From contig JADGDR010000001.1 of NCBI GenBank assembly GCA_016744795.1, forward strand, positions 310,001-374,000: 64,000 bases of DNA. Direction: 5' to 3'. This document shows, one piece after another, positions 9,801 through 39,049 of the stretch. The DNA is from Sulfurospirillum sp. GTDB taxonomy: Bacteria; Campylobacterota; Campylobacteria; Campylobacterales; Sulfurospirillaceae. Both the position numbers and the translations under genes were made by a program. Every line of letters starts with the position of its first letter. Within the stretch, counting starts at the first letter, position 1. The notes under the pieces were generated by a model. That model had not been told where the DNA came from, ran no database searches, and worked only from the letters and a program-made list of their open reading frames with translations.

Positions 9801-9963
9801 TACCATAGTAACTCCCACTCACCACAATCGTTTCAAGAGATGTTGGAGGAAACATCTCTTTTGCCAAATTATTATAAGAAAAATATGACATTACGATAAG
9901 CATTACAAACAGTAGATGATTTAATGCTCTATATTCTATGAAAAACTCAATAACTCTTTTTAT
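6871..9963 (-). CDS. RND superfamily inner-membrane transporter (AcrB/HAE1-like), apparent ATA start
   Basis: This is a proton-driven transporter of about 1030 residues, with the two-fold RND plan of 12 TM helices and two large periplasmic loops. TM4 reads LGFLVDEAIVVSENIHRH, keeping the proton-relay acid. The first ATG in frame (9903) would cut off TM1. The frame extends upstream through IKRVIEFFIEYRALNHLLFV, with no ATG/GTG/TTG, to an ATA at 9963 that has AGGAG at 9970-9974, six bases away, and overlaps the CobN stop as ATAA. I therefore place the start there. No membrane-fusion adaptor or outer-membrane channel gene is adjacent, which is unusual for an efflux RND. Its substrate is unknown; position between CobN-like and TonB genes suggests a role in the same uptake pathway. 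Confidence 0.8.
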   Translation of the reverse strand: MKRVIEFFIEYRALNHLLFVMLIVMSYFSYNNLAKEMFPPTSLETIVVSGSYYGSSSEVLNDLIVRDYEEILDNHPSLFDVTTTISKSRYTISADIKENSSKELIINEIKSKIAALDIYMPSDMKQPMVNVPKRFFPLLAISILTSPTQYEHAIEVAKSIEKEIRELDHIYQAQIIGKYDKVLKIVLNYKKIEAYGLNRLNVLKKIDELFVLYPIGKIKAETQQYFVSTKTSKLTKKSVENLKININKKLLHVKDIAKVDYFYERHSLSTRTNGKKSIIVMVKKGQKGDSLKLSKDIREILKKYKKQNTNIGFKVLNDSSFWIKSRLNVISSNIIIGLILLFFAIWAFISFRISIIVLVGIPVSLAFSVIGLDFFGASLNTLSLIGVLLSLGFLVDEAIVVSENIHRHRLFGKSVKEACVDGTLEVMPTLFVALLTTIIAFIPLLFISGGLGVFIRIIPVMVIVLIVSSFMESFVFLPAHYKFFIRDKDEYKQSKRDFLWEKLGNSYRRILSLCLDYKYPFVTILVSTILIFTTFMIKNSQFTLFPEFDSMSINIIGEGKYNSLKYTSKIIKPIEKLLLKNLNPEDYSSIHTTIGMKSDGRSSHEKGNSFFTITINLKPKIADGYFNREINPYFQLFGGDTDEIVSRKKSAKEIKKELDIWLKDYKKSMELSINIPQTGVVKSDIFISFIHNDDKKVKQAINLLKLKMRNIAGIYNIKDDMKYTDVTLELDINDYGRKLGFTQKNLIARLSTYLKVEKISKITNKQKKQMELKVTISDKNRLKDFESLLIGVPNSIMKVSLNDIAQIAYIKKLTNIKKENLYKIYSISASVDKNVIVSSKFYKEIAPILKKIKNSGIRVVLKGEAGKNEKVKEDITKSLIVTVFGILIVLTCFFNSFMLSLFSLSVIPLSLLGMLLGHSFLGLSLTFSSLLGFIGLIGIVMNDTLIMLNFIRKSKTKKELIEFASSRLRPIVLTSITTVLGLFTLIFFASGESLLMQPLAVSIGFGLLGATIINLFYVPVAFSFWQSKYR

Positions 9964-13895: not shown

Positions 13896-13970
13896 ATAAT
13901 TGACCTCTTCAAATTTAATATTTATATATACTATAATTCCCACAAAATTTGTGGGAATTATCTATGTTAT

Positions 13971-17035: not shown

Positions 17036-20000
17036 TTATTGCTCCTTCTTTGTTAGCTCTCTTGCCATACCAGCAAACATAATCAAGAGTATAAGTACTA
17101 GCACAAAGTAATCAGTATTGTCTTTTTTACTCTTTTGCTTTTGTACTTTCTCCAATTTTTGCCCTTTTACTTTAGGTGGCTTATTTACTACTTGTTTTTT
17201 GATTTTTGGTAATGCTTTATTTACTATTTTTCCACTTACGCTCATCAAACCAAAACCTATAGCTTTATCGTTTACAAATTTTTTAAACTTTTCATTATAG
17301 TTTTTAGAAATAGAGTGTTTTGTCTCTAGTTCTTTATAAAGCTCAACTAATTTTTTTAGGGTCTCTTCATCAGTTTTAAAATAACCTTTTCTATTTGCTT
17401 CAAGCATCTTTTGTACAATTCTTGCATAAGCATCTGCATTTAAAGACTTAAACCACTCTTGAATATTTAAATCATACTTATCATTTACATATATTTCTAC
17501 AAACTCTTGCCATTGATCATCTCGTACAACATTTGGATCAACCACTTGCCATCCCCAAAAATTGTTCATAATGTCTTGAATTGCTGTTGTACCACTATAG
17601 CCCTCAGCTTTCATCTCTTTGATCCATTTTGGATGAAAATATCTACCACGAAGTTCTTTACTTAAAAATTCTCCCGTAGACTCTATTTTTGCATCTTTTG
17701 GATCTCTTAGATTTGCTATATATGTCTTAGGTGCTTTCCCATCTATATTTCTTACTGCCATTGCAATTGAGCCAAAATACTCAAAAGGATCATCTGAAGT
17801 TAAAAGTCCATATAAATTTGAAGTTCTTGAAAATATTATCGCCTCTGTTCCACTTAGATTTTTAGAATATAAGTCAAGATTTACTCTTTTTTCACTCCAT
17901 CTACTGCTATCACTTCCAAAGTAATATCCAAGTTTTTGAACATAATTTTGAGATATTCTTTTGTCATCTGTCCATCTTCCTGTATCATCAATATCATCAA
18001 CTCCACTTCCATAATCTCCAGTTTTATTTGAAAAAATTCTAATTGTTGATAAATATTTTGCTTCACTTGCATTAATGTCTTTATTTTTTGACAATTTCTC
18101 TTCTAAAGCCAAAGAGTTATCTCTTAAATAGTTGTTTTTCTCTTTAAGTGCGCTTATTTTTTCTACTGCTTTTGCAATTAACTGCATTGCTTGAGGAAAG
18201 GTATCTCTATAAAGTCCCGTTGCACTTATAACAACATCAATACGAGGTCTTTTTAACTCACTATATGGGATTATCTCCACATCATCAACTTGACCTTTGT
18301 TAACAACATATGCATGATTTATCATTTTTTTAAGTTTTTCTAACCAGTCATCAGGGGTTAAATCTAAAACGAATCTTATTCTTCCTATGGTTACTATTTG
18401 AGCTAACCATTGAGCAATGCCACTTGGCATGAATCTCTCTAATTTTTGTTTTACTATATTTTGAATAAACTTATTTGATATCCCTGTTTCATTCCAAATA
18501 GGTTTTACTCCCATTGCATATAATATTTGAGATTCCAAAACACCATAATGACGCATTGTTTCAAGTGACCAAAGATTAAAAGTGAGTTTTTTAGGATACC
18601 TTTGATGTTGAGCATAATAATTTTGTATAAAATCTTTCATAAGCTTACTACCAGTTTTATAAGCGGCTTTTGTTGGAACTTTACTAGGGTCAAATCCATA
18701 CATATTGACACCCGTAGGTAAACTTTGTGGATTTCTTATGCTGTCTCCACCAACGCCACCTTCTATATATTCGCCATTTAATGCTCTCATAAAGTTTTTC
18801 ATCTCTTTGGTATTTATAAAACTATATTTATACTTCAAAGCAACTCTTAAATATGCTTTTATCTCTTCATCATTTACAGTTTTTAAATCTTTTTCATCTA
18901 TCACATAATTTTTGATGAGTTTATATGTTTTAGAGCTATTAAAATCCTTGTAATTTTTAGCAAAATATTTTTCATCACCTTCTACCTTCGAGATAAACTC
19001 ACTTCCAACCATCTGCATAACTGTTGAAATAAGATGTTCTTCTTTTGGGTATGTACCAAAAGTGTGCATTCCTAAAGGCATAGCTTGTTTGGAAGTACCA
19101 AGTATATAATCTTCAACTTTTGATAAATAGTTTTCAAAGTCATCTTTTATCATAATAGATGTGTACTGTACATCTTTATCTATATTTATCTTTGCAGTTA
19201 TCTTTGTAATGCTAGTTTTAAGTTGAGTTTTAAGCATACCATCATCAACACTTTTATATTGATTGATTAAGTCCATGATTTCACTCAACTCTTTATAAGT
19301 TCCAGTCAATCCAAATGGAGGAGTTTGATGAGATATAAGAGTGGCTCTTCCTCTTCTTTTAGCTTGAATTGCTTCTGCAAGATTGTTTGTTATATATGGA
19401 TAAATAATTGGCACATCTCCTAACACTGAAAGTGCATCATCCCCTACTCTTAACCCTCTTTCTTTGCCAGGACTCCACTCTTGAGTTCCATGAGTTCCAA
19501 GATGAACAATAGCATCTGCTTTAAATTGATTTCTAGCCCATAAATAACTTGCTAAATAAGAGTGTCCAATAGAAACTGTTGGGTTATGCCACAATGAAGC
19601 ATCATCTCTATTTATATCAAGATTTTTAGCCCAAATACTATCTTCTCTCTCAGCTCGTCTTGGCTGTGGCATAACTACAATGTTGCCTATTTTCATTCTT
19701 GGAACTAAAAAGTACCACTTTTTGTCTTTATAAATTAACATTTTTGATTCAAGAGGATAACCCCAAAACTTAATCATATTTGTTCTTGTATCGACTGGAA
19801 GTTTATTAAACTCTTTAATATAATCTTCGTAAGGAAATAAAGCTGCACTATCTTCTTTTAACATCTTTTTAGACTCTTCATATAGATTTACACTATACAT
19901 AACTTTTAAACCCTGAGTTGCCTTTTTTCTAATGTAAGTTGCATTATTTTCTTTTGTTGTATAACCATGTTTTACAAACTCTTTAAAAATTAACTCTAAA

Positions 20001-21190
20001 CTCTCTGGAGTATTTAAAAAACTAGCTCCCATATTGTCTACACCTGAGGGATAGTTATAGTACATAATGGCTACATTTTTATCTGCATTATCCATTCTTT
20101 TTAATCTAGATATATTTAAAGCTTTATTTGCTATAGCCTCTAATTGTTTTTTTATTGGAAGCATCTCTTTTGTTTTGTTATCTTGAGTTGCTACTATTAA
20201 AGTGTCAGTAAATGCCAGTGTCTCAGGTATGATATACATCATAGGTATCATTGGAAAATCTATTCCATATGGATCTTTTTCCCAATCTTTTTGACTACCT
20301 TTTGCATAATATAAAGCATGCAATATAGGCACATTTAACTCTTCGTACTTCTTTTTTAAATGCTCATGGTCTATTATCATAACTTGAAAATTTATAACAG
20401 CGTCAACTATAGTTTTGTTGTTCTGTCTTAAAAAATTTAACCCAGCAGCATCTTTACCTGTAATATTGACATAAAAAGGTAATGCATAAGCACCATTTTC
20501 TTCAAGATATTTTATAATAGCGTTTATATGTCCTAATGCACCACTAACAACAGAACCCCTATGAAGTCCTATTCCAATTATTGGTTTTTTGTTATTAGCT
20601 AAATCGATATTAAAAAAATCTGTATACTCTTTTAAGTTCTTAAAAACTAAATTAGGGTTTTTGGGATGATATATGCCCTCTTTTGGTAAAATTATTGCCT
20701 TTTCAATATCTTCTTTTGAAATTTTTAAGACATTCATTTTTATATATTTTGACAAATTAATAAAATTTGATTTACCGCCATTTTTCCAATAGCTGTTTAA
20801 ATCTATGTTTTTTTGTAACTCTATGTTTTTTCTATTTGAATTCTCTTCTTCTACAGATATTGGCAAAATAATAATTTTTTCATCACACTTTTTTATGGCT
20901 TCACTAAATCGTTCCAATAAAGAATTCACACTTCTTGCCCCAGCAAGAGAGTCAAACATAACTATTTTATAACTGTTTAGAGTATCAATATATTTAGTTT
21001 TATCTATTTGTGTTTCAAATTTTACATCTACTTCTAAACCATACTCTTTAGCTATTTTTTTAAACGCATATAATTTTGAACTTTGCGAAGGTTTTCCCAT
21101 TGTAGTGCTTATAACAAGTATATCTTTTTTAATATTTGCAAAAAGAGACATTGACAGCAATAACATGAGCAAAAATATTTTTTTTATCAT
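17036..21190 (-). CDS. CobN/Mg-chelatase-H-like protein, secreted and membrane anchored (copy 2)
   Basis: A 1384-residue paralogue of the protein at 9960-13895, with the same plan: signal peptide (KKIFLLMLLLSMSLFA), CobN core (HLGTHGTQEWSPGKERGL, TPPFGLTGTY, NPQSLPTGVNMYGFDPSKVP), and C-terminal TM (YFVLVLILLIMFAGMARELT). The linker before the TM, KVKGQKLEK, is shared exactly by both. It carries an extra segment of about 63 residues (roughly 895-965) missing from copy 1, between GVKP and EIIPYSELKRPRID. I choose the ATG at 21190, with GGAG seven bases ahead, over the GTG at 21196 that overlaps the DUF2149 stop. Fused CobN in B12 synthesis is cytoplasmic, so this exported form is a different function; tetrapyrrole metal removal is the leading idea. 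Confidence 0.85.
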   Translation of the reverse strand: MIKKIFLLMLLLSMSLFANIKKDILVISTTMGKPSQSSKLYAFKKIAKEYGLEVDVKFETQIDKTKYIDTLNSYKIVMFDSLAGARSVNSLLERFSEAIKKCDEKIIILPISVEEENSNRKNIELQKNIDLNSYWKNGGKSNFINLSKYIKMNVLKISKEDIEKAIILPKEGIYHPKNPNLVFKNLKEYTDFFNIDLANNKKPIIGIGLHRGSVVSGALGHINAIIKYLEENGAYALPFYVNITGKDAAGLNFLRQNNKTIVDAVINFQVMIIDHEHLKKKYEELNVPILHALYYAKGSQKDWEKDPYGIDFPMIPMMYIIPETLAFTDTLIVATQDNKTKEMLPIKKQLEAIANKALNISRLKRMDNADKNVAIMYYNYPSGVDNMGASFLNTPESLELIFKEFVKHGYTTKENNATYIRKKATQGLKVMYSVNLYEESKKMLKEDSAALFPYEDYIKEFNKLPVDTRTNMIKFWGYPLESKMLIYKDKKWYFLVPRMKIGNIVVMPQPRRAEREDSIWAKNLDINRDDASLWHNPTVSIGHSYLASYLWARNQFKADAIVHLGTHGTQEWSPGKERGLRVGDDALSVLGDVPIIYPYITNNLAEAIQAKRRGRATLISHQTPPFGLTGTYKELSEIMDLINQYKSVDDGMLKTQLKTSITKITAKINIDKDVQYTSIMIKDDFENYLSKVEDYILGTSKQAMPLGMHTFGTYPKEEHLISTVMQMVGSEFISKVEGDEKYFAKNYKDFNSSKTYKLIKNYVIDEKDLKTVNDEEIKAYLRVALKYKYSFINTKEMKNFMRALNGEYIEGGVGGDSIRNPQSLPTGVNMYGFDPSKVPTKAAYKTGSKLMKDFIQNYYAQHQRYPKKLTFNLWSLETMRHYGVLESQILYAMGVKPIWNETGISNKFIQNIVKQKLERFMPSGIAQWLAQIVTIGRIRFVLDLTPDDWLEKLKKMINHAYVVNKGQVDDVEIIPYSELKRPRIDVVISATGLYRDTFPQAMQLIAKAVEKISALKEKNNYLRDNSLALEEKLSKNKDINASEAKYLSTIRIFSNKTGDYGSGVDDIDDTGRWTDDKRISQNYVQKLGYYFGSDSSRWSEKRVNLDLYSKNLSGTEAIIFSRTSNLYGLLTSDDPFEYFGSIAMAVRNIDGKAPKTYIANLRDPKDAKIESTGEFLSKELRGRYFHPKWIKEMKAEGYSGTTAIQDIMNNFWGWQVVDPNVVRDDQWQEFVEIYVNDKYDLNIQEWFKSLNADAYARIVQKMLEANRKGYFKTDEETLKKLVELYKELETKHSISKNYNEKFKKFVNDKAIGFGLMSVSGKIVNKALPKIKKQVVNKPPKVKGQKLEKVQKQKSKKDNTDYFVLVLILLIMFAGMARELTKKEQ

Positions 21191-21192
21191 TA

Positions 21193-21513
21193 TCACTCTC
21201 CTTTTTTATCTTCAGGAATATAAACCATACTTCCATCTTTCATCTTGTAGGCAACGCCCGCTTTTACACCTTCACCCTCACCTATTTTTCCATTTGATTT
21301 GTATTTGGTTAATTTTTTACCTTTTTTAATAATAACTTCCATATTTTTTTTTCCTGCATTTTTAACAACTGTTACATCCTCGCTGTTAAAAGGATTCAAT
21401 GGATTTTGAGCAATAGATATCAAAAGCGCAGCAATAATTACTAAAAATACATCTATTAGATTAACTGCTGAGAGTATAGGATTTAAAGACTCATCATCAT
21501 GAAGAAGTTTCAT
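21193..21513 (-). CDS. DUF2149 protein, ExbD-like partner
   Basis: A 106-residue protein with one N-terminal TM helix (about residues 17-36, NLIDVFLVIIAALLISIAQNP) and a hydrophilic periplasmic part. The 'N-L-I-D-V-F' start of the helix, with an aspartate in the membrane segment, recalls ExbD's proton-binding aspartate. DUF2149 genes are regularly paired with MotA/TolQ/ExbB-like genes beside CobN-like genes, as in the hmu locus. Here it overlaps the ExbB-like stop by four bases and is followed at once by the CobN-like gene, a clear translational chain. It probably forms the motor that drives CobN copy 2 or a receptor. Confidence 0.82.
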   Translation of the reverse strand: MKLLHDDESLNPILSAVNLIDVFLVIIAALLISIAQNPLNPFNSEDVTVVKNAGKKNMEVIIKKGKKLTKYKSNGKIGEGEGVKAGVAYKMKDGSMVYIPEDKKGE

Positions 21514-27380: not shown

Positions 27381-29039
27381 TTAAAGCGCTAATTTTATAG
27401 TAAAAAGTGCTCCTTTTTGAGTATTTGATGCATTGATATATCCATGCATGTTCTCTTCAATTATAATTTTACTCATATATAATCCTATACCTGTCCCTTG
27501 TTTCGCATGTTTTGTTGTAAAATATGGCTCAAAAACTCTATCTAGAATATCGTTTTTAATGCCTTTTGCATTGTCTTCTATCTTTATAAGTGCAAATTTA
27601 CTGCCACGCTGAAGAGTAAGTTTTATATATGGTTTTTCTATGTTACGCTCTATTAAAACATCTTTTGCATTTGAGAGTATATTTAAAATAGCTTGAGCAA
27701 ATTCTCTGGGATAACCCATTACTTTACTCTCCTGTTCAATATATATTTGCAAATCTATATTATTATATTTTAATGATGACTCTATAATAAAAGTTGCATT
27801 TTGACACTCTTGTTTTAAAGAAAATTTTGTTTTCTCCTTTGATGGTTGAAAAAAGTTTTGAAAATCACTTATTGTATTTGACATATGTGCAAGTATAACA
27901 TCACACTCTTCGATGCTCTTTTCAAAAGTACTATTACTCAAATCATCATGCTCTTTTTTCACTTGCATATTCATCAAAACTGCATTTAATTCTGTTAGAG
28001 GCTGTCTCCATTGATGTGCTATATTTCCTATCATATTTCCCATGGAAGCGAGTTTACTTTGTTGGATTAGAAGTTGTTCTTGTCTTGTACGCTCTTTTAT
28101 CTCAGAGACTATCCGTCCTTCAAGACGATCGAGCATTTTATTCATCACTAATTTAAGCCGATTGAGTTCCTCACTATTTGCACTCTTTTCTAACCTTCTC
28201 TCCAAATCTCCTTTTTTAAGGTCACCTACTATGCTAGTAGCATCTTCAATTAGCGTTATATCTTTTTTTAGATTTTTCCTTAGTACTTCAACATTTGTAT
28301 TGATGATTTTTGCCATCTCTCCAAACTCATCTCTGTTGTTTAACTCTATGCTTATCTTTTCGTCTTTATCAATCTTACGTCCTAACAAATCAAAAAATCT
28401 GCCTAAACCACGCTGAACACTCTCTATAGAAAAAACAATGTTTCTGGCTATCAAAAAACCAAAAGCAAGAGTTAAAACGATAACAAAAAGTGCTCCAATT
28501 AAAATTAAATCTTGTTTCTTTTCATAATTTATTTGAGCTTTTTTATATGTATTGTAAGAGTTTTTTAACTGTTTTGCTTGGAGATTTTCAAGCTTCGATA
28601 TAAGTATATAGAACTGCTCCCTCTCAACTGAGTTAGCATTTGTAAAAGCCCCCTCTTCAAAACCATTTTTTATATACATATCTGTTATAAAGACAAGTTT
28701 TTTGTAGTTTGCCCAAACAAAATTCATATCCTTGTGTTGATTAGAAAATGAGACATCAAGCTTTTTTATAAGTGGTAAAAAATCCATCTTTATCTCTTCT
28801 CGGTAGTCATCATTTGGAGCCATAACTAAAGAAAGTGTCATCTCCCTAAGTCTAAAAAGTGGATTTATAAAATCTTGTTGTATGTTTTGTACTTTTTTAG
28901 AATCCTTAAAAACATTTTCAACCCTTTGAAACCCATCTTCAGATATGTTTTGTGCAAGCAATGACATCAAAACTATAGCGACAACGCCCAAAGACGCCAT
29001 CACAAAAAACTTATATCTAACTCTTAAATACTTAATCAT
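27381..29039 (-). CDS. Sensor histidine kinase (HWRQPL type)
   Basis: A 552-residue membrane kinase, the third gene of a regulator / solute-binding / kinase run. Seen: TM1 (about 12-29), periplasmic segment to about 175, TM2 (about 178-197), a HAMP-like linker, a coiled-coil, and the phosphorylation site NIAHQWRQPL with His342. The catalytic domain carries the N box (ILNILSNAKDVL), 'DNAKGI' and the 'TGIGLYMSK' G2 box. The HQWRQPL phosphoacceptor box is widespread in Campylobacterota. It overlaps the solute-binding gene by four bases (ATGA), so they are translationally coupled. The partner is expected to be the response regulator at 30675-31367. Confidence 0.92.
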   Translation of the reverse strand: MIKYLRVRYKFFVMASLGVVAIVLMSLLAQNISEDGFQRVENVFKDSKKVQNIQQDFINPLFRLREMTLSLVMAPNDDYREEIKMDFLPLIKKLDVSFSNQHKDMNFVWANYKKLVFITDMYIKNGFEEGAFTNANSVEREQFYILISKLENLQAKQLKNSYNTYKKAQINYEKKQDLILIGALFVIVLTLAFGFLIARNIVFSIESVQRGLGRFFDLLGRKIDKDEKISIELNNRDEFGEMAKIINTNVEVLRKNLKKDITLIEDATSIVGDLKKGDLERRLEKSANSEELNRLKLVMNKMLDRLEGRIVSEIKERTRQEQLLIQQSKLASMGNMIGNIAHQWRQPLTELNAVLMNMQVKKEHDDLSNSTFEKSIEECDVILAHMSNTISDFQNFFQPSKEKTKFSLKQECQNATFIIESSLKYNNIDLQIYIEQESKVMGYPREFAQAILNILSNAKDVLIERNIEKPYIKLTLQRGSKFALIKIEDNAKGIKNDILDRVFEPYFTTKHAKQGTGIGLYMSKIIIEENMHGYINASNTQKGALFTIKLAL

Positions 29040-30703
29040 TTTAATACCTTAGGATACATAGCTTGCATTCTTTCTTTTGGATAATCACCATCACGTACAG
29101 ACCAATGATATTTGCTAATTTTTGCTTTCCACAAAGGCATAACTGCAACTTTAGAAGGAACATAATAGACCTCTTTGTTTACCGCTAAAACTATATTAGG
29201 TGAGGGAACAGCTAACATATAGGCTTTTTTGTACACTCTATAAACTATTTTTTTGACAACTTTATCAAACTTATCACTCTTACATGTAGATGAAAAGAGT
29301 TCGTCAATATATTGCTGTAACTCTTCATCTTTATCAATAGCAGACCATTTACTAGAAGTGCGATATGTAAAAAAAGTAGTCCAAGGATGATTCCCATACC
29401 AATCATCATTGCCCCAAGTAAGTATATCCCAGCCATTTCCAAACTCTCTATTTGTTAAAAGGTTGTGATATATATCTTTTTCACTTGAAGTTATAGAGTA
29501 CTCTAAACTAACTCCAAACTGGGAAAGTTGATACTCTATACCTTTCCATAAAAACATAAATCTATCTTGTGTTAAAACTTTTAACTTTAGTCCATTTAAT
29601 ATTTTTTTTAAATATTTTTTATCTTCTACGGATAAATCTTTACCATAAGGCTTTAACTTCTGTGTTGCTTTTTTTATAGACATATAATTTACTGAAGATG
29701 ATGTTGGAGCTACTATGCCCTCTTTCTTATAAACAAAATTAAGAAGTTTTTCTTGGTTAATAGCCATATTCAAAGCAACTCTGATTTCTTGATTTTTTAA
29801 AATTCCATCTTTTTTTAACATATTTAAATATATGGCTATATTATGTGTTGATGGTTTTGTTATAAGCTTTGCATACTTTGAAATAGTAGCTTCTGTTTTT
29901 TTATTAAATGGAATTGGAGTTATATCTAATTTTGATTCATAATTTAAGACCATATCTACCGCTTTAGAAGTCTTTAATTGTGTGTATATAGTTATATTTT
30001 CTATATAAGGCATACCTTTTTCATAGTAATATGGATTTGCTTTTAATTTTACTACATCAGTTTGGGCTCGTCCTGTAGCAAAACCTTTCACCAATATGTA
30101 TGGTCCTAAACCATAAGCTCCTGCTTCCTCGGTATTATCTCCTGTTGACTTTCCTTTCCAAGAAAACTTTTTTATATACTCATCAGTATAAAGATTAATT
30201 CTAGCCAAGTCATTTAGAAACATTCCATAAGGTTGTTTTAAATAAAATCTTACTCTATATTTATCTAATTTTTTTATGCCTTTGAGTCTATTATGTATGT
30301 CAGTATAAGTAAATGGCTGTTTTATAAATGCTTTGATATTTTCTACAACTGAATCAGCAGTAAAGTCACTACCATCTTGAAATTTTACACCTTTTCTTAA
30401 AATGATATCATATGTTAATGAGTCTTGTTTTATATACGATGTTGCCATCATATACTCCCAACCACGAGGAGTATCACTCACTCTAAAGAGAGTTCCATTT
30501 ATTAATTTTGATACATATGAATAAGGAATTGAAGGAATTGAAACTTTTATATGAGAGCCTTTTACTCTCTTATTAATTAAATCTTTTTGTATATTTGTAG
30601 TTATATATTTTATTGGTTCTATTATATCTTTTTGAGCAATTAAATGTGTACATGTAAAGAAAACTAAAAAAAGTTTAACAATCCACAAGACGATACCCAA
30701 CAC
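29036..30703 (-). CDS. Family-5 extracellular solute-binding protein (Opp/NikA-like), sensor-associated
   Basis: A periplasmic binding protein of about 555 residues with a hydrophobic signal sequence (WIVKLFLVFFTCTHLIA). Family-5 marks include 'LTYDIILRKGVKFQDGSDFTADSVV' and 'NPYYYEKGMPYIENI'. There are no permease or ATPase genes nearby; instead it sits between a response regulator and a kinase, so it probably senses a ligand and activates the kinase, as TorT does for TorS. The start at 30703 is GTG and overlaps the regulator by 29 bases; TTG codons at 30700 and 30688 are alternatives. A TACATGTAA copy (30649) lies in the signal peptide. Ligand unknown. Confidence 0.82.
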   Translation of the reverse strand: MLGIVLWIVKLFLVFFTCTHLIAQKDIIEPIKYITTNIQKDLINKRVKGSHIKVSIPSIPYSYVSKLINGTLFRVSDTPRGWEYMMATSYIKQDSLTYDIILRKGVKFQDGSDFTADSVVENIKAFIKQPFTYTDIHNRLKGIKKLDKYRVRFYLKQPYGMFLNDLARINLYTDEYIKKFSWKGKSTGDNTEEAGAYGLGPYILVKGFATGRAQTDVVKLKANPYYYEKGMPYIENITIYTQLKTSKAVDMVLNYESKLDITPIPFNKKTEATISKYAKLITKPSTHNIAIYLNMLKKDGILKNQEIRVALNMAINQEKLLNFVYKKEGIVAPTSSSVNYMSIKKATQKLKPYGKDLSVEDKKYLKKILNGLKLKVLTQDRFMFLWKGIEYQLSQFGVSLEYSITSSEKDIYHNLLTNREFGNGWDILTWGNDDWYGNHPWTTFFTYRTSSKWSAIDKDEELQQYIDELFSSTCKSDKFDKVVKKIVYRVYKKAYMLAVPSPNIVLAVNKEVYYVPSKVAVMPLWKAKISKYHWSVRDGDYPKERMQAMYPKVLK

Positions 30704-31367
30704 CTGAAAGATTTTTAATATACCCTTTTGGAAATTTCTGTCTAACGTTTCTTAGAAGTGACTTTAAAGCACAATCAGTCATAACATCATCTTGCCATAT
30801 ACAATGCTGCAGCTCTTCATACGTTACAACTCGATGTCTATTTTGTAAAAGCAATTCAAAAAAAGCAATCTCTTTTTTACTCATAACTATTTGTTCTTCA
30901 TTATATGAAAGAAGTTTATTATCAAAATCATATCTATAACCACACGGTAACTCTTTTGAAACTGCATGATTTGCACTTATTACACTAACACATTTACTCA
31001 AAGATTCTTTCAAATTTTTTAAGTTTATTGGTTTAACAATATATTGTTCTAAATGAAGCTCTACTGCACCTAAAAGATACTCTTTATCAGTGTGAGCAGT
31101 TACCATTACTATAGGAGTTTTACTATCTTCTTTTCGTATCTCTTTCACAAATTCTATGCCATCCATTTGAGGCATTAAAATATCTGTAAAAATTATATCT
31201 GGTTTTTTTTCTTTGTATATCTTCAAACCAACTTTGCCATTAGAAGCTTCAAAAACCTCTTTGGCATAATATCTGAGGGAATCAGACATCTTAGTTCTAA
31301 TTCCCTCTTCATCTTCAACATACAAAATACTCAACGTTTTTAGTTTTTCTAATAAAATCTTATCCAT
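30675..31367 (-). CDS. OmpR-family response regulator
   Basis: A 230-residue regulator with an N-terminal receiver (residues about 10-125, acidic pocket E18/D19, phospho-acceptor D62 in IIFTDILMPQMDG, K112-type lysine in YIVKPINL) and a C-terminal winged-helix DNA-binding domain (about 140-230, ending GVGYRLVDC). It heads the left reductase regulatory cluster, next to a porin gene and the monohaem cytochrome/reductase genes. Likely controls these; the target promoter is not identified. Confidence 0.9.
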   Translation of the reverse strand: MDKILLEKLKTLSILYVEDEEGIRTKMSDSLRYYAKEVFEASNGKVGLKIYKEKKPDIIFTDILMPQMDGIEFVKEIRKEDSKTPIVMVTAHTDKEYLLGAVELHLEQYIVKPINLKNLKESLSKCVSVISANHAVSKELPCGYRYDFDNKLLSYNEEQIVMSKKEIAFFELLLQNRHRVVTYEELQHCIWQDDVMTDCALKSLLRNVRQKFPKGYIKNLSGVGYRLVDC

Positions 31368-31414: not shown

Positions 31415-32569
31415 TTAAAATTTATATGCCAAAGTTGCATTTAATTGTGTCATATCTGTTGTAGTAACATCACTACTATCTTCATCAGTCATTGCAAAAC
31501 CTACATTTAAGCTTAACTCTTTAGTGAACCCATACCCAGCCCAAACATTAAATTCACTCTTCTCATACTGACCATATTCAGTAATACCATATAAACCTGT
31601 TAAACTAACACCAGCAACTGATTTTGATACCATCAGGTATGTTGTTTGTGCATCAGCAACGTACATTTGGTCACCTTCTTCAAAAGGAACAACAGTATCA
31701 CCAGCATTTGCCGCACTTCCCCAACCAGCTTTTTTATCAGTTTTAACAAAACCTAAGGTAGCTGTATATCCAGAAAATCCAACATAAGCTTTAAGTTCCA
31801 TCATATCACCATCATTAACAAGTACATCTTCTTTAGTTTGCATATAATGTGCAAGTCCACCAAAAGTTACATCATTTGCATTTGAATCAAAATTCACTTT
31901 AGCACCATAGATATCATGGCTATCAGGAGCACTTAAAGCATAGAGTTTACCTTTAACTTGCTCATTGAGTTTATAACTAAAACCTAATTTATAAATACCT
32001 TTATTAGCATTTACATCAACCATTTGTCTTAAATCTCGTGAATAAACTCTACCTCTTCTATCTGTCCAAATCATTTCTAATTGAGCTTTTTCAAATGGAG
32101 TGATATATGCAGTAACAGCGTCATGGTATTTTGTTAACCACTCAGTTGATAAAATTTGTCTACCAGCTTTTACATGTAACATATTTGTATCATACGCTAA
32201 GTATGCATTTGAAACCATTGCTCTATAATCTCCATCTTGATAAAAACGTTCACTTGCATCACCTTCACCATGACTAGTTACAAATTTATCATCATCTTCC
32301 CATAAAGTTTTATATGCTCTAAAACCAATTGCAGCACTAAAGTTATTGTATTTTGCAGTCTCATAGTTTAACCCAACAGAACCAACGCTATAAGCAGTAT
32401 CAGAATAATACGCATTTATCTCTTTATCTTGACTTCTACTCTCATATGTAACACTAACATCTCCAGAAACTTTACCATCTCTTAACGCATCACTTAAATC
32501 ACCTGCGAACAAAGTAGTGCTTGCCCCAAGCACTACAACTGAAACTAATAAACTTAATCTACTTTTCAT
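31415..32569 (-). CDS. Outer membrane porin-like beta-barrel protein
   Basis: A 384-residue exported barrel. A Sec signal peptide ends near residue 22 (SALFAG-type: TLFAGDLSDAL), then alternating hydrophobic strands with aromatic turns and a final F residue (TQLNATLAYKF), as needed for barrel assembly. It resembles the major outer-membrane/OprD-like porins of Campylobacterota but is not matched to a named protein. It lies between the response regulator (48-base gap) and the cytochrome/reductase pair and is likely co-regulated, perhaps letting the reductase substrate into the periplasm. A TTTACATGTAA palindrome copy (32169) lies in the coding region. Confidence 0.75.
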   Translation of the reverse strand: MKSRLSLLVSVVVLGASTTLFAGDLSDALRDGKVSGDVSVTYESRSQDKEINAYYSDTAYSVGSVGLNYETAKYNNFSAAIGFRAYKTLWEDDDKFVTSHGEGDASERFYQDGDYRAMVSNAYLAYDTNMLHVKAGRQILSTEWLTKYHDAVTAYITPFEKAQLEMIWTDRRGRVYSRDLRQMVDVNANKGIYKLGFSYKLNEQVKGKLYALSAPDSHDIYGAKVNFDSNANDVTFGGLAHYMQTKEDVLVNDGDMMELKAYVGFSGYTATLGFVKTDKKAGWGSAANAGDTVVPFEEGDQMYVADAQTTYLMVSKSVAGVSLTGLYGITEYGQYEKSEFNVWAGYGFTKELSLNVGFAMTDEDSSDVTTTDMTQLNATLAYKF

Positions 32570-32595: not shown

Positions 32596-33144
32596 TTATT
32601 CTACTTCTTTAACAATTCCATCTTTTGCAAAACCTCTTAAGAAACGTAAAATATATGTCGTATCTTCTTTTGTAGGTTTTGCAAACTCTTTCATACTTCC
32701 ATACAGTCCTTCCCACTCAAGCATTGTATGCTCTTCAACTACTTTTGCAGGATGACACTGTGTACACTTTTCATAAAAACGCTCAGAAGTTAACTCCCAA
32801 GCCTCTTCTGAGTCATCTGTAAAGTTATCTTCACTTAAAGTTACTTTTAAAAGCCCCTTTTCTCCTGAGACTTTTATAAGATTTTTATTTTTTACTGTTG
32901 CTAATAATAATTTAAAATTAGGTGTTGCATAAAGCTTACTCTGGTCATTTTTATCTACATAACCACTTAACGTTAGTACAGATAAATCACCATCTTTTGA
33001 TAACTCTTGCATTGGTGAACCACTATAAAGAGTAACCTCATCAATATGAAGTTCTACTCCATCCTCTACATACACATACACTACTGCTTGTGCATTTGCG
33101 AATAATGCACTCAACAATAAAACTTTAATCAATAACTTTTTCAT
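32596..33144 (-). CDS. Monohaem c-type cytochrome, electron donor to the reductase (Cj0265c-like)
   Basis: A 182-residue periplasmic protein with a signal peptide (about 1-20) and one haem site, CTQCH, near residue 131. A beta-rich N-terminal part (about 21-115) has no known role. The same arrangement occurs in Campylobacter jejuni, where Cj0265c (monohaem cytochrome) pairs with the reductase Cj0264c. It lies 21 bases after the reductase gene. It replaces the pentahaem TorC used by enterobacteria, and would pass electrons from the quinol or cytochrome pool to the molybdopterin reductase. Confidence 0.85.
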   Translation of the reverse strand: MKKLLIKVLLLSALFANAQAVVYVYVEDGVELHIDEVTLYSGSPMQELSKDGDLSVLTLSGYVDKNDQSKLYATPNFKLLLATVKNKNLIKVSGEKGLLKVTLSEDNFTDDSEEAWELTSERFYEKCTQCHPAKVVEEHTMLEWEGLYGSMKEFAKPTKEDTTYILRFLRGFAKDGIVKEVE

Positions 33145-33165: not shown

Positions 33166-35553
33166 TTATATCTTTCTTGTTTTTGGCATTGAGTATGCTT
33201 GATTTGCACCAATCACACCTTGTGCTTTTTTAATTGCAACTAATGTTGTATTTGCTGTTGTTGCTTGTGCCATCTGAGACGTTGGTCTTGAAGATGTAAG
33301 AATATTACAATGTCCACTATTACATCTACTTCCAACTTCACTTATGTTTTCAGGGCTATACCAAGCACCCTCTTCAATTGCGATTACTCCTGAACGTATA
33401 TCTTTTGTAACAACTGCACCAGCAAGTATCTTTCCACGTTCGTTATAAACTTCAACCAAATCACCATTTTTAATACCAAATTTTTTAGCATCACTAGGAT
33501 TAATTCTTACAGGTTCTCTACCTTTTACTTTGTATAGGTTAGTTATCCATGTATTGTCTAATTGTGAGTGGAGTCTATAAGTTGGATGAGGAGAAACCAT
33601 ATGAAGTGGGTAATCTTTTACTTCTTTACTACCTAGGTATTCAGCTGGTTCAAACCAAGTCACATGTCCTTTAAACTCTTCATATTTAAAACTTGCAAAC
33701 TTATTAGAAAAAATTTGAATTTTTCCACTACTCGTTTTAAGAGGGTTTTTAATAGGGTTTGCTCTAAAAGCACTATGTCTAACATATTTGTAAGCCTCTT
33801 TTGGAATTTCAAATTTAACAAATCCACTCTCCCAAAACTCATCAAAACTTTTTAATTTTGCAGCATCTGATTTTGAATAGAACTCTTTTAAGTGTTCCAT
33901 CTTAGACTTTTTACCTGTAAATTTTTTGTATTTTTTACTACCAAATTTTTTAGCTAGTAATGAGTAAATTTCATAATCATCTTTTGCTTCATACGGAGTT
34001 TCAACTACTTTTCTCATAGCATACACATAATCACCAGAATAACTAGCACCCATGCCAATATCATCTCTTTCAAGAGTAGTTGTTGCAGGAAGAACTATAT
34101 CTGCCATTTTTGCAGTTGGTGTCCACCATGGTTCTTGAACAACAAAAGTTTTTAGTGTTTTAAGTGCTTTAAGTAATTCATTTGTATCAGGATGATGACC
34201 AACAATATTTGCTCCACCAATATACATCATATCAATTTTAGGAAGTGTCATCTTATGACCTTTAAAATCAATCTTTCTGCCAGGATTTAAAAGAGTTTCT
34301 GAAATTCTTGAAGCTGGAATAGATACTTTTACCTTGTTTCTACCTTGAGAAAATCCACTAGGTCCAGTTTTACCGGCACTTGCTTGTCCACCACCAGAAT
34401 AATGCATAGAAAAACCAAAACCTCCACCAGGAAGTCCAACTTGACCTATCATTGATGCTAGAGTAATAATACCCCAATCAGCTTGTTCTCCATGATGAGC
34501 TCTTTGCATAGCCCAGTTACCTGCAATGAATGTTCTTTTAGAAACAAATAAATCAGCTAATTCTTTAATTTTTGCAGCAGGAACTTCTGTAATTTTTTCT
34601 GCCCATTCAACTGTTTTAGGAATGCCATCTGATTTACCTAAAAGATAAGGTAAAAACTTATCAAATCCATCAGTATATTTAGCAATAAAATCTTTATCAT
34701 ATTTTTTGCTAGTATAAAGATAATTCATCATACCAAGCATAAAAGCAACATCAGTATTTGGACGGATATAAATACACTCGGCATCAAACATTTTTGCAGT
34801 TTCTGTTTTTATAGGGTCAATAGAAATAAATTTCATACCTGATTTTTTATATTTTAAAAAATACTCATCATTTTTTCTATTTGCAACACCATAATCAATT
34901 TTGTTTGTCTTAAATAAATCAGCTCCCCACATAACATATACTTCAGTATTTGCTAACATCTCTTCATGTGAAGTTTGAAGTGAGTAAACTTCCATATCAC
35001 CCATTATTTCTGGGTTAGTTGGACCAGCTGCCCCATTACTATACTCACCAGAAGTTCCTACAGCTCCTTTTTTAACTACATTAAAAAATTTACCACCAAG
35101 AGTTGGACAACTATTAAGTCGACCAGGATGTGACCAACCACTATAAGAGCCATTATATATATTCTCTTTTGGAGTTGCTTTTATCTGTTTTGCTACAAGT
35201 TCTAAGGCTTTATCCCAGCTAACTCTTACAAACTCATCATTACCTCTAAACTCATTGTTATCAGCCTTACCTTCTAGGTATGATTTTCTTACATAAGGAT
35301 ATTTAATGCGTGAATTCGAGTAATTTCTATCTACTAGTGCTTGAGTAAAAGAACCTGGTCTCTTATCTGACTCATGAGGAACGATACCAACTATCTTACC
35401 ATCTTGAACATCTGCATAAAATGCTCCAAAGTGGCTAGCATGTGGAATTCTTTTTACTTCTGAAAACAACTCTGTTGCTGTTGCTGTACTTGTCCCAACT
35501 GCAACTGAAGCAATCGCACTACCTTGTAAAAACTTCCTTCTTGAAATACTCAT
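33166..35553 (-). CDS. Tat-exported molybdopterin reductase, DMSO/TMAO reductase family (module 1)
   Basis: A 795-residue periplasmic enzyme with the twin-arginine motif SRRKFLQ at residues 4-10. It carries the bis-MGD binding architecture of DMSO/TMAO reductases: the serine ligand region GEYSNGAAGP (Ser172), and the start of the catalytic part 'GSYSGWSHPGRL' (133-144), where the usual Tyr and Trp are separated by two residues rather than one. The 'QTSWP' motif reads QTSHEE here, and the whole differs notably from the TorA-like protein at 39050-41512. It contains no N-terminal iron-sulphur cysteines. Substrate could be TMAO, DMSO or another N-/S-oxide; not decided. Its gene is followed by the monohaem cytochrome. 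Confidence 0.87.
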   Translation of the reverse strand: MSISRRKFLQGSAIASVAVGTSTATATELFSEVKRIPHASHFGAFYADVQDGKIVGIVPHESDKRPGSFTQALVDRNYSNSRIKYPYVRKSYLEGKADNNEFRGNDEFVRVSWDKALELVAKQIKATPKENIYNGSYSGWSHPGRLNSCPTLGGKFFNVVKKGAVGTSGEYSNGAAGPTNPEIMGDMEVYSLQTSHEEMLANTEVYVMWGADLFKTNKIDYGVANRKNDEYFLKYKKSGMKFISIDPIKTETAKMFDAECIYIRPNTDVAFMLGMMNYLYTSKKYDKDFIAKYTDGFDKFLPYLLGKSDGIPKTVEWAEKITEVPAAKIKELADLFVSKRTFIAGNWAMQRAHHGEQADWGIITLASMIGQVGLPGGGFGFSMHYSGGGQASAGKTGPSGFSQGRNKVKVSIPASRISETLLNPGRKIDFKGHKMTLPKIDMMYIGGANIVGHHPDTNELLKALKTLKTFVVQEPWWTPTAKMADIVLPATTTLERDDIGMGASYSGDYVYAMRKVVETPYEAKDDYEIYSLLAKKFGSKKYKKFTGKKSKMEHLKEFYSKSDAAKLKSFDEFWESGFVKFEIPKEAYKYVRHSAFRANPIKNPLKTSSGKIQIFSNKFASFKYEEFKGHVTWFEPAEYLGSKEVKDYPLHMVSPHPTYRLHSQLDNTWITNLYKVKGREPVRINPSDAKKFGIKNGDLVEVYNERGKILAGAVVTKDIRSGVIAIEEGAWYSPENISEVGSRCNSGHCNILTSSRPTSQMAQATTANTTLVAIKKAQGVIGANQAYSMPKTRKI

Positions 35554-35584: not shown

Positions 35585-35642
35585 ATTATAAATCAAAAAA
35601 GTAGCAAAAAAGTTCCTAAATATAAATTTTTTATGTTAAAAT
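35585..35642. promoter_or_regulatory. Divergent promoters between the two reductase modules
   Basis: On the minus strand a TATAAT box (35590-35585) lies 32 bases upstream of the reductase ATG. On the plus strand an extended -10, TGTTAAAAT, with the hexamer at 35637-35642, lies 26 bases before the kinase ATG. The 114-base gap has no clear operator. Confidence 0.45.
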
Positions 35643-35667: not shown

Positions 35668-37689
35668 ATGAACAGATATATTAGAATTTCTACTAAACGA
35701 CACATTGGCATTATTGTACTCCTAGTATTTATACTATCTGCTTATATCTATATAGTCTATTCAAATTACACAAACAATAGGAACCTACTTTTAGAAACTG
35801 TTCGACAAAATCAAATTCAACTGGTAAAAGCATATAAACGAAAAATTGATGAAAAACTTTTTTCTCAAAAAAGAGTTATAAAAGCAACTGCAGACTATAT
35901 AAAAACAAAAAACAGACATCGTGATTATTTTCTAATCAAAGAAATTTTAGCACTTACTATAAAAAATGGTAATTTCAGAAGTGTATACATTGGATACCAT
36001 GATGATTTTTTTATAACAGGTATTAATTGGATTGCTCCAGATTGGTATAAGGTTACACAAAGAGAATGGTACATAAAAGTAAAAGAAAAAAATCAAATTG
36101 TTGTTACTAAACCATATCCTGATTCAGATTTAGATTCAAATGTTATCTCTATTGCTGCACCAATATATAAAAACAACAAATTATATGCTGTGTTATCAAG
36201 CGATCTTGTTATAGATGATTTTAGAAGAGATATCCTCTCTTTATTACCTGTAAAAGAAGGTTTTGCTTTAATGATGACAAAAGATGGTGATGTTCTTCTA
36301 CGCCCAGAAAAATTTGGATTCAATATTAAAGAAGATTATTTCAAAAAAATAGCTAAAGATTTTTTTCTAAAACCATCAGGAGTAAATACTTATAATATCA
36401 ATGGCAAAAATTATATTTTTACTTATGACTCTTTAAAGAATAGCGATTGGATTTTTATAACAGTTTTAGATGAAAGCAAAATATATGAAAAACTAAATGA
36501 GAAACTGTTTATTAATTTAATTATTGCTTCTATTCTTGCATTTATTGGTCTTTTTACTTTTTTTTATGTATCTTTTACACAAAGTAAACTTTACGAAAAT
36601 AGACACTTATTAGAGCTCTTTGCCAAAAGTTCTACATGGGGCGTTCTTATGACTAATAAAAATGGCTCTATTGTATTTGTAAATAAAATTTATGAAAAAA
36701 TATTCTCATTTAAAAACAAAAGCTTATACTCTAAAAATATTACTCAAATTTCTCATTTAATAGAGAATAAACAAATTTTTGATAATAAAAAACACTTTTT
36801 TCAATTAGCAAAAGATAACCCTTATAAAATAATCTCTTATAAAATAAAAACTAAAGAATTTGTTTACAATGTTCAAATAACACCTCTATTAAAAGCTCAA
36901 CGAGAATTTGAAGGCATTATAGTTACTATCAATGATATATCGCATGAAGCAGAACTAGAAGAAAAAGAGAGTCAACAAGAACAAATTCTTATTCAAAATA
37001 GTAAAATGGCTGCACTAGGAGAGATGATAAGTGCGATATCACACCAATGGAGACAACCGCTTAGTACCTTACTTCTGCTTATCAGTAATTTAGAAGAGAT
37101 GATAACTCCTGAAAAAATCCCATTAGGAGCAGAGTATTTAAAGCGTTCTCGTGCAAATATTGAACTTATGAATGAAACAATCAAAGCATTTCGTAATTTT
37201 TATAAGGAGAACCTTAATGAAAAAAAATTTAATTTAATACAAATAATAGATGAAATTCTTTTAATTGTAACACCTCAAATGAAGATAAATGGAATCAATA
37301 TTAACTTTCATTATAATAAAAAAGATAGTTATGAATTAGTAGGTTATCCAACTTACTTAAAACAAGTTATACTAAATCTCATAGCCAATGCAAAAGATGA
37401 ACTAACTCAAAAAAGTATCAAAGATATTTATTTTGAAGGTAAAATTCATATTAATCTTGAAAAAAAAGGGCATTTAATTCTTATAAAAGTAGAAGATAAT
37501 GGAAATGGAATAGATGCATCTAAAATTGAAAAAATCTTTAAACCTCTTTTTACAACAAAAGGAGAAGAAGGAACAGGAACTGGTCTTCATCTATGTAAGC
37601 TACTAGTAGAAGAAAAAATGAGTGGTAAAATATACTTAGAAAATTTATTTAACCCAACACGTTTTATAATAGAATTAAGGATTAAGTAG
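35668..37689 (+). CDS. Sensor histidine kinase with Cache-type sensor and PAS domain (HWRQPL type)
   Basis: A 673-residue kinase. A TM helix (about 13-31) is followed by a large periplasmic Cache-like domain (about 32-285, with the 'REWYIKVKEKNQIVVTKPY' ligand-pocket pattern), TM2 (about 287-304), a PAS domain (about 325-425), a phosphorylation site with His459 in ISHQWRQPL, and an ATPase domain (N box 'ILNLIANAKDEL', 'DNGNGI', 'GTGTGLHLCK'). Stop overlaps the regulator start by one base (TAGTG), a tightly coupled pair with the gene at 37689. Likely senses a small ligand of the right-hand reductase. Confidence 0.92.
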   Translation: MNRYIRISTKRHIGIIVLLVFILSAYIYIVYSNYTNNRNLLLETVRQNQIQLVKAYKRKIDEKLFSQKRVIKATADYIKTKNRHRDYFLIKEILALTIKNGNFRSVYIGYHDDFFITGINWIAPDWYKVTQREWYIKVKEKNQIVVTKPYPDSDLDSNVISIAAPIYKNNKLYAVLSSDLVIDDFRRDILSLLPVKEGFALMMTKDGDVLLRPEKFGFNIKEDYFKKIAKDFFLKPSGVNTYNINGKNYIFTYDSLKNSDWIFITVLDESKIYEKLNEKLFINLIIASILAFIGLFTFFYVSFTQSKLYENRHLLELFAKSSTWGVLMTNKNGSIVFVNKIYEKIFSFKNKSLYSKNITQISHLIENKQIFDNKKHFFQLAKDNPYKIISYKIKTKEFVYNVQITPLLKAQREFEGIIVTINDISHEAELEEKESQQEQILIQNSKMAALGEMISAISHQWRQPLSTLLLLISNLEEMITPEKIPLGAEYLKRSRANIELMNETIKAFRNFYKENLNEKKFNLIQIIDEILLIVTPQMKINGININFHYNKKDSYELVGYPTYLKQVILNLIANAKDELTQKSIKDIYFEGKIHINLEKKGHLILIKVEDNGNGIDASKIEKIFKPLFTTKGEEGTGTGLHLCKLLVEEKMSGKIYLENLFNPTRFIIELRIK

Positions 37690-38375
37690 TGGACAAAAGA
37701 CTAAATGTATTGTTAAACAACCTCAATGTGCTTTTAGTAGAAGATGAAATAAACCTAAAACAGATTATTAGTGAATCTATTAACCCATACGTTAAACAGA
37801 TATATGAAGATGTAAATGGATTAGATGGATTAGAAACTTTTCAATATCATGACATTGATTTGATAATCACCGATATAAATATGCTAAGAATGAATGGATT
37901 AAGAATGGTAAGTGAAATTAGAAAATTTAACCCAACTATACCAGTTATATTTTTAACAGCTTATGACACAGATGAAAATATTTTACAAGCAATTGAATTA
38001 AACAATAGTAATCTTTTAAAAAAACCTTTTGATAAAAAACAGTTACTAACCACTATGATGATGACTGTAGGACAAAATTGTGTTAATGACTGTGATATAG
38101 ACCTTTTACATGGATATAAATATTGCAAAAAATCAAAAGAATTAACTTATAAAAAGAATCCTATTGAATTAACGAAGATAGAAAAACGCCTTCTTGAGTT
38201 ACTTATCCATAATAAACAACACACTGTCTCTTTTGAAATAATAGAAAATTACGTTTGGCAAGAAAAAGGTGCAACACCAGAAACAATAAGATCATATATA
38301 AAAAAATTACGAAAAAAAATCCATCCTGAAATTATAAAAAATGTACAAGGCATAGGATATAAGCTGGACATATAA
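37689..38375 (+). CDS. OmpR-family response regulator (module 2)
   Basis: A 228-residue receiver plus winged-helix regulator. Phospho-acceptor D62 lies in LIITDINMLRMNG, and the domain ends with the typical VQGIGYKLDI. The GTG start at 37689 overlaps the kinase stop, so the two are a cognate pair. An 89-base gap leads to the cytochrome/reductase genes, its probable targets. Resembles its left-hand counterpart at 30675-31367 in layout, suggesting that both modules came from one ancestor. Confidence 0.9.
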   Translation: MDKRLNVLLNNLNVLLVEDEINLKQIISESINPYVKQIYEDVNGLDGLETFQYHDIDLIITDINMLRMNGLRMVSEIRKFNPTIPVIFLTAYDTDENILQAIELNNSNLLKKPFDKKQLLTTMMMTVGQNCVNDCDIDLLHGYKYCKKSKELTYKKNPIELTKIEKRLLELLIHNKQHTVSFEIIENYVWQEKGATPETIRSYIKKLRKKIHPEIIKNVQGIGYKLDI

Positions 38376-38464
38376 AAATTTTCAGCAAACTTCTTTATTT
38401 TAAAATTCATAGTTTAATCACACTTTACATATATCATTCATTAATATAAAAATTAAGGAATGAG

Positions 38465-39043
38465 ATGAAAAAAATCTATTTAACTCTTTTGAGTATCATA
38501 ATAACTACTTCAATGTATGCAAAACAAAATGAGGTATTTGCAAAAGTATCTTCACCAGTTTTTTTAAATTCAACACTAAGCAAAACAATTGGAACAGTTC
38601 AAACTGCAACTCCATTAAACATTATCAAAGAGAAAAACAATTCTCTATTAGTTAAAGTAGAGGGATGGAGTGCTGAAGGTTCTGAAACAATTATTTTTAA
38701 AAAAGTAGGGCAAAGAGTTATCTATGCAATTTTAGATGAAAACTCTATAAAAAATATAAAAACAATCAAAACTGTATTAGATGATTATGAAACACCATGG
38801 AATCAAGTAACTATAAATGTATGGATTAAAAAGGAGAATATAGTAAAAGATATTAATATTATTTGGGAAGAAGCATCTACCATATTTAATGGTAGATGTG
38901 GAGGATGCCATCCTGTACCTGAATTGCAACACTTTACAGCAAATCAATGGCCAGGGGTAATTAAATCTATGAAAGATAGAGCAGGATTAATACCAAATGA
39001 GTTTCAATCAGTTGTCAAATATGTACAAAACCATTCAAAATAA
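38465..39043 (+). CDS. Monohaem c-type cytochrome (module 2)
   Basis: A 192-residue exported protein with a signal peptide (about 1-19). One haem site, CGGCH, is near residue 142. The N-terminal part reads 'KVSSPVFLNSTLSKTIGTVQTATPLNIIKEK', an SH3-like fold pattern. It precedes the TorA-like reductase by six bases and matches the plan of the module 1 cytochrome (similar size, haem near the C-terminus). Likely the direct electron donor to the reductase. Confidence 0.85.
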   Translation: MKKIYLTLLSIIITTSMYAKQNEVFAKVSSPVFLNSTLSKTIGTVQTATPLNIIKEKNNSLLVKVEGWSAEGSETIIFKKVGQRVIYAILDENSIKNIKTIKTVLDDYETPWNQVTINVWIKKENIVKDINIIWEEASTIFNGRCGGCHPVPELQHFTANQWPGVIKSMKDRAGLIPNEFQSVVKYVQNHSK

Positions 39044-39049
39044 GGAAAA

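Follow-up and report, generated by a model that had tools for sequence, protein, structure and literature searches.

A solute-binding protein between response regulator and kinase: a candidate three-component sensor for S- and N-oxide respiration in Campylobacterota

What is a binding protein of an importer family doing in an operon that encodes a two-component system and no transporter? The question is raised by positions 27381–31367 of a 64,000-nucleotide stretch of Sulfurospirillum sp. DNA (assembly GCA_016744795.1, contig JADGDR010000001.1, positions 310,001 to 374,000; hereafter the window), where an earlier note, made from the letters alone, had described the overlapping genes of a response regulator (RR), a solute-binding protein (SBP) of family 5 and a histidine kinase (HK), all in one operon. 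The three open reading frames (ORFs) are found where the note placed them, and their families are confirmed by Pfam. We consider it highly probable that together they form a dedicated three-component sensor for S/N-oxide respiration, and we refer to the RR-SBP-HK arrangement as the triad.

The triad belongs to a six-gene operon on the minus strand, in the order TorA/BisA-type reductase, monohaem cytochrome, Opr family porin, RR, SBP and HK. The reductase (33166–35553) has a Tat signal and molybdopterin domains, and matches the BisC-family model TIGR00509 over nearly its full length at 1005.6 bits, below the cut-off of 1017.55; we limit its label to 'TorA/BisA-like'. Its nearest solved structures are 7l5i, deposited as a trimethylamine-N-oxide (TMAO) reductase, and dimethyl sulfoxide (DMSO) reductases. 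The partner cytochrome (32596–33144) is a secreted c-type protein with one CxxCH motif, read from the ORF, and resembles TorC weakly, over the C-terminal part of that model (TIGR02162); the porin (31415–32569) scores 477 bits with NF033923, for which the cut-off is 150. The RR (30675–31367) is of the OmpR/PhoB type (Response_reg 8.8e-29, Trans_reg_C 4.6e-11), the SBP (29036–30688) matches PF00496 (SBP_bac_5) with 129.7 bits (1.9e-37), over the cut-off of 32.4, and the HK (27381–29039) is a simple kinase of 552 residues in which Pfam recognises HATPase_c (1.3e-15) and a sub-threshold HAMP only. Gaps of 21, 26 and 47 nt separate reductase from cytochrome, cytochrome from porin and porin from RR. 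The triad genes themselves overlap, SBP and HK by 4 nt (ATGA) and RR and SBP by 14 to 29 nt, the smaller figure applying if the SBP starts at the TTG at 30688, which is as good a candidate as the GTG at 30703. No permease or ATPase gene lies within the six-gene operon, as the earlier note had remarked.

This arrangement is widely conserved. Scanning genome contigs for the pattern yielded 11 loci (L027–L037), all labelled Campylobacterota or members of that group apart from one labelled Proteobacteria only, in which the SBP lies between RR and HK wherever the contig allowed. A profile built from these 11 SBPs and run on 397 genomes of the class was positive in 33 genomes, in which merging fragments and tandem copies by eye leaves 51 loci; genome counts are lower bounds, as only the top two or three candidates per genome were scored. 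An HK adjoins the SBP at all 51 loci, and the genomes that carry the triad include Sulfurospirillum diekertiae JPD-1 and S. cavolei UCH003. We fetched 49 regions around these loci (some tandem or neighbouring copies share a region), annotated them by BLAST against the window and reference proteins, and counted the window itself as one locus beyond them; the gene order holds in the window, in L027–L037 and in the 49 further loci. With duplicates removed (L029, L030, L033, L035 and L036, which duplicate L071, L069, L068, L077 and L078), the combined set comprises 55 loci with 60 SBP ORFs, in regions of up to 21.6 kb, and the gene order that the note had suggested looking for in other genomes is conserved across it. 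Upstream of each SBP ORF there is an RR, or an SBP ORF itself preceded by an RR, and downstream there is an HK except at two contig ends (the second copy of L032, and L034); the HK of L104 was missed by the distance rule but is present in the BLAST annotation. Overlaps of RR with SBP (54 of 57 measurable copies) and of SBP with HK (51 of 55) are so regular that they cannot be due to chance, although the longest-ORF choice of starts inflates the size of some. Chance or artefact ORFs are ruled out by the Pfam matches and by conservation. A molybdo-reductase is present in 53 of the 55 loci and an Opp/Dpp permease homologue in none; four ABC-ATPase-like ORFs occur in three loci, none adjoining the triad. 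The SBP gene did not turn up on plasmids (no tblastn match at 1e-20 in 72,556 plasmid records). Two loci, L094 and L098, have two tandem SBP genes between RR and HK and are possibly two-ligand sensors; at L037 a frameshift or an assembly error has probably divided the SBP into two ORFs.

How might such a protein address the kinase? His342 and the N-box and G-box residues of the HK are invariant in 61 of 61 copies. Transmembrane windows near residues ~11 and ~178 enclose a periplasmic sensor region (residues 31–177, encoded at 28509–28949 on the minus strand) that is all-helical in the AlphaFold 2 model and predicted to be a four-helix sensor, with helices at 7–73, 77–99, 103–124, 128–136 and 138–219 and block means of pLDDT of 72–92 over residues 41–170; kinases are among the matches listed by Foldseek for this model. 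Given the positions of the two transmembrane windows, the turns at 74–76 and 125–137 should sit at the membrane-distal end. The second turn holds a FEEGAF motif (residues 127–132; 28644–28661, minus strand), which we regard as the predicted docking site of the SBP on the basis of its conservation in kinases that have an SBP beside them and its loss in those that do not.

A profile of the HK recovers 56 full-length matches of at least 553.9 bits in 37 of the 397 genomes, well separated from the next, partial matches (at most 322 bits), and 51 of the 56 adjoin an SBP. The other five are at L123 (genome G331), L122 (G061), L137 (G256), L141 (G207) and L136 (G261). Among the SBP-bearing kinases of the fetched set (n=56), F127 and E129 are present in all, with E, D or Q at position 128. 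In the five SBP-less kinases F127 is never found and E129 once: taking L122, L123, L136, L137 and L141 in turn, position 127 is Y, Y, D, Q and D, position 128 is K, K, R, N and N, and position 129 is K, T, L, E and K, and the kinases of L122 and L123 also carry a 13-residue insertion just N-terminal of the motif. Other invariant positions of the sensor are retained (N76, Y112 and Q154 in all five, P75 in four). When the SBP-less kinases are compared with 36 non-redundant SBP-bearing ones, no other of the 154 columns fits as badly as 127, 128 and 129; none of 2000 random held-out sets matched the worst single column, and among 1000 sets drawn by leaving clades out two reached it, with none reaching the worst three-column window. 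On the kinase-core tree the presence of the SBP has switched at least three times, by loss or by gain, and each of the three independent pairs also shows a change at F127. This F-E/D-E motif of the membrane-distal tip is therefore likely, as far as the sequences tell, to be where the SBP docks.

The SBP-less kinases also speak for a different view, in which the HK senses its ligand directly through the four-helix bundle, as NarX senses nitrate, and the SBP only tunes the response or, when unliganded, represses it in the manner of CBP with ChiS. Five kinase loci manage without an SBP, and those among the triad-less TorA loci described below lie beside or near a TorA-type reductase; the CuaDSR kinase, in the passages cited, still responds partly without its SBP (PMC10384115), and CBP is described as repressing ChiS until chitin binds (PMC10208484). 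However, the SBP is kept at the great majority of kinase loci, and the SBP-less kinases have altered tips, two of them with the insertion, as if rebuilt for direct sensing. We think this view unlikely.

If the triad is a sensor with the SBP as its receptor, its neighbours may indicate what it senses. Three kinds of reductase system lie beside triads: TorA1 with a monohaem cytochrome, TorA2 with a cytochrome, and a TorD-DmsA-DmsB-like system. The SBP phylogeny follows these kinds, requiring 7 changes as against 25.8 in shuffles, and the window reductase is the probable output of its triad. TorA1-type reductases (E <=1e-120, top two candidates per genome scored) are present in 162 of the 397 genomes, so the triad appears to be an optional controller. 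We inspected 20 chosen TorA loci without an adjacent triad, and in addition L141 for the SBP-less kinase of G207: TorA1-cytochrome loci are common among the 20, most of which have no linked two-component pair, and three (L122, L123 and L137) have an RR and HK of the triad family and no SBP. 

Further TorA-type reductases occur in the same genome. A second S/N-oxide module in the window (35668–41512, plus strand), consisting of a dCache-PAS kinase, an OmpR-type regulator, a cytochrome and a TorA2-type reductase, faces the first, such that one intergenic region serves two reductases with two different sensor designs. The dCache-PAS/TorA2 module directly follows the triad in L069 and L073 and lies behind a porin in L074. 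A third TorA1-type reductase of the genome, outside the window (G000:C22:49458-51842, L121), has neither an SBP nor a triad-family HK; an RR2-like regulator is close upstream.

The SBP itself says less about its ligand. An N-terminal hydrophobic stretch is present in 56 of 61 copies and a lipobox in one, and in an alignment of 57 copies (four rows of at most 480 residues being excluded) D429 is conserved in 56 and W436 and W448 in all. Since the structure model is too weak for an analysis of the pocket, we draw no ligand claim from it. From the gene context, the ligand is probably an S- or N-oxide (for example TMAO, DMSO or methionine sulfoxide) or an oxidised peptide, and nickel is not favoured. 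The SBP could present something else altogether, such as nickel, haem or a peptide, with the link to the reductases reflecting general anaerobic control, and its relatives by sequence in the PDB give some grounds for this: GsiB, AppA, NikA, NikZ, haem-binding protein A, a chitin-oligosaccharide-binding protein and other binders of peptides, nickel or sugars. That three kinds of reductase for one substrate class stand beside the triad, at nearly every locus, and that the SBP tree tracks them, makes such a ligand improbable.

The genome also encodes three other strong SBP_bac_5 proteins, each within a complete importer operon that has two permeases and two ATPases of its own; there is a fourth such gene, an orphan, on contig C28. 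SBPs unlinked to a permease that they share are known, the C28 orphan shows that unlinked SBPs occur here and the genome has three Opp/Dpp-like importers, so that the window SBP might serve a distant Opp/Dpp-type permease, its place in the operon only co-regulating uptake with respiration; yet every SBP locus in the 397 genomes adjoins an HK, no permease homologue is within reach in the 55 loci, each importer has its own SBP (at most ~27% identical to that of the window) and the HK tip motif is lost where the SBP is absent, all of which leaves this explanation very improbable. A distant ABC permease depending on this SBP, raised in the earlier note, found no support.

The other end of the pathway may be marked by a repeat. 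A candidate operator and promoter lies at 35585–35613 (minus strand), ending 31 bp before the reductase start codon; it consists of two ACTTTTTTG(C/A)T half-sites, 11 bp apart, with TATAAT directly after them. Among direct-repeat lags from 7 to 16, each of the three promoter classes peaks at lag 11 (z 7.9, 5.0 and 7.9; n=15, 12 and 10), and in 14 non-redundant promoters this lag reaches z 6.0. Leave-one-out matrix scores place 16 of the 27 non-redundant upstream regions above the 99% level of the null (10.1), and the window promoter, at 21.9, lies above the null maximum of 19.0; because the 27 regions also served to refine the matrix, the scores err somewhat on the favourable side, even with one region left out. 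The window repeat has a single match in the window and in the whole genome at up to three mismatches. An exact 5-mer repeat search was dominated by poly-T. In a simple promoter scan -35/-10 pairs were no commoner than in shuffles, so the promoter claim rests on the repeat. We infer that the 11-bp repeat is the operator of the RR and that the whole operon would be under positive autoregulation. The porin and reductase, named as likely targets in the note, do share the operon behind this conserved repeat. At one locus, L115 (G270), a full triad is preceded by such a repeat, which lies before the RR and has a matrix score of 26.7; the next gene is chemoreceptor-like.

The genes, their conserved order, the common repeat and the way in which SBP and tip motif are lost together, all of which are read from the sequences, suggest the following scheme. 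The secreted SBP would bind a small oxidised solute in the periplasm and be seated on the FEEG motif, at the end of the four-helix sensor that lies farthest from the membrane. Once the ligand is bound, the activity of the kinase would change and the kinase would phosphorylate the OmpR-type RR; the RR would bind the direct repeat that immediately precedes the -10 box and, if we infer the sign of the response correctly, switch on the reductase, the cytochrome, the porin and the sensor itself.

The closest parallel is TorT-TorS-TorR, which governs TMAO respiration in E. coli: there a periplasmic binding protein, a kinase with an all-helical sensor and an OmpR-type regulator control a TorA-type reductase operon through direct-repeat boxes, and the triad, with its linked reductase and 11-bp repeats, may do likewise. 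The analogy, already drawn in the note, gains from the triad at all SBP loci of the 397 genomes, the link to S/N-oxide reductases and the loss of the tip motif without the SBP. The components differ, the SBP belonging to family 5 rather than to TorT and the HK being a simple kinase rather than a TorS-type hybrid with receiver and Hpt domains. The TorT family (TIGR02955) is absent from the 7 NCBIfam matches of the SBP and has no match in the genome; the TorS model (TIGR02956, cut-off 676.5 bits) matches only the kinase end of the HK, at 40.5 bits, and reaches at best 265.5 bits elsewhere in the genome. A true TorT/TorS pair is thus rejected, and the triad would work like TorT-TorS-TorR without being a member of that system. 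For docking, the likeness is to DppA-Tap of E. coli dipeptide chemotaxis, in which DppA, also a family-5 SBP, docks on a periplasmic four-helix sensor at its tip, although the partner is a chemoreceptor in place of a kinase and DppA also serves transport. In Ruminiclostridium cellulolyticum CuaD-CuaS-CuaR, as described in the passages cited, an SBP adjoins a two-component pair and is dedicated to sensing, another SBP being used for transport; CuaD, however, is a cellobiose-specific lipoprotein and the system controls a sugar importer, not respiration (PMC10384115). In Vibrio cholerae the membrane sensor kinase ChiS is likewise under the control of a periplasmic binding protein, CBP. Among the family-5 relatives of the window SBP by sequence is a chitin-oligosaccharide-binding protein whose structure has been solved (1zty). 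ChiS differs in being a hybrid kinase that itself binds DNA, with CBP acting as its repressor in the absence of chitin (PMC10208484). On the reductase side, BisA-BisB of Campylobacter concisus (PMC10653797) and Cj0264c-Cj0265c (PMC3234257) share the reductase and monohaem cytochrome layout of TorA1-CYT1, and the passages cited do not mention a linked sensor. Strains of C. concisus are reported there to grow better with biotin sulfoxide, DMSO, methionine sulfoxide, nicotinamide N-oxide or TMAO (PMC10653797).

Several observations weigh against our interpretation. The kinase exists without an adjacent SBP in 5 of 56 cases, and four of the genomes concerned (G331, G256, G207 and G261) are not among the 33 that are positive for the SBP. 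A phylogenetic sign test of the tip motif gives p 0.25, three pairs being too few for significance. The replacement of F127 by tyrosine, in two of the SBP-less kinases, is a mild change, so that the change of charge at 128–129 is the main difference there; and as the SBP-less sensors are 29–54% identical to those of their nearest relatives, mostly at or below the mean of SBP-bearing pairs at like kinase identity, general divergence contributes to the effect. Two loci lack a nearby reductase, L080, which is cut by a contig end, and L115, which is not. The lag-11 signal is also seen, at a smaller z 3.1, in 18 control promoters of reductases without an adjacent triad, two of which (L135 and L136) come from a genome with a triad-family RR and HK, and 11 of the 27 upstream regions fall under the repeat threshold, some probably through a wrong promoter or start. 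The model of the SBP is weak (pLDDT 58, pTM 0.44, Foldseek TM ~0.4), and family-5 proteins are, in the passage cited, predicted to bind mostly peptides (PMC9602780). Finally, although characterised SBP-kinase pairs are neighbours in 10 of 11 cases, which favours our interpretation, two Pseudomonas SBP-kinase neighbourhoods showed no interaction in the laboratory, according to the part of the source cited (PMC11113362).

Two other features of the window deserve mention. Two CobN/Mg-chelatase-like proteins (by Pfam; 9960–13943 and 17036–21196, minus strand) have apparent N-terminal signal peptides and C-terminal membrane anchors, and their genes adjoin a TonB-dependent receptor (13971–15860); they are perhaps exported chelatases that would remove metal from a tetrapyrrole. 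A formate dehydrogenase (56302–58539, plus strand) is split by an in-frame TGA at 56719–56721, in the context HCARL-U-HGP, which is most likely a selenocysteine codon and not a break.

In conclusion, pairs of SBP and kinase are of a known kind, and the novelty here lies in the family to which the SBP belongs, in the lineage, in the tip motif of the kinase and in the candidate operator. No description of the triad was found in the literature searchable as open text, subscription papers and supplements being outside its reach, and the full text of a 2019 review of respiratory regulation in Campylobacterota contains neither 'TorR' nor 'binding protein' (PMC6682613). A broader proposal, which we hold to be about as probable as its opposite, is that Campylobacterota have a TorT of their own: an importer-type family-5 SBP, of the kind that normally delivers peptides or nickel, captured as a permanent sensory subunit for S/N-oxide respiration, docking at the acidic-aromatic FEEG tip of a four-helix kinase and combined with three reductase systems, and shed by the kinase at least three times with the tip rebuilt, apparently back to direct sensing. 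This would be a case of convergent evolution, with another binding-protein family doing the same job as TorT. For Campylobacterota the triad offers a concrete candidate for an S-/N-oxide sensor, together with a putative docking site and a putative promoter as its target. It also opens SBP-kinase signalling to testing, since contact residues are predicted, SBP-less versions occur naturally and paralogous pairs are found within one cell. If the proposal is true, the SBP-bearing and SBP-less kinases would form a natural series for the gain and loss of a co-receptor.

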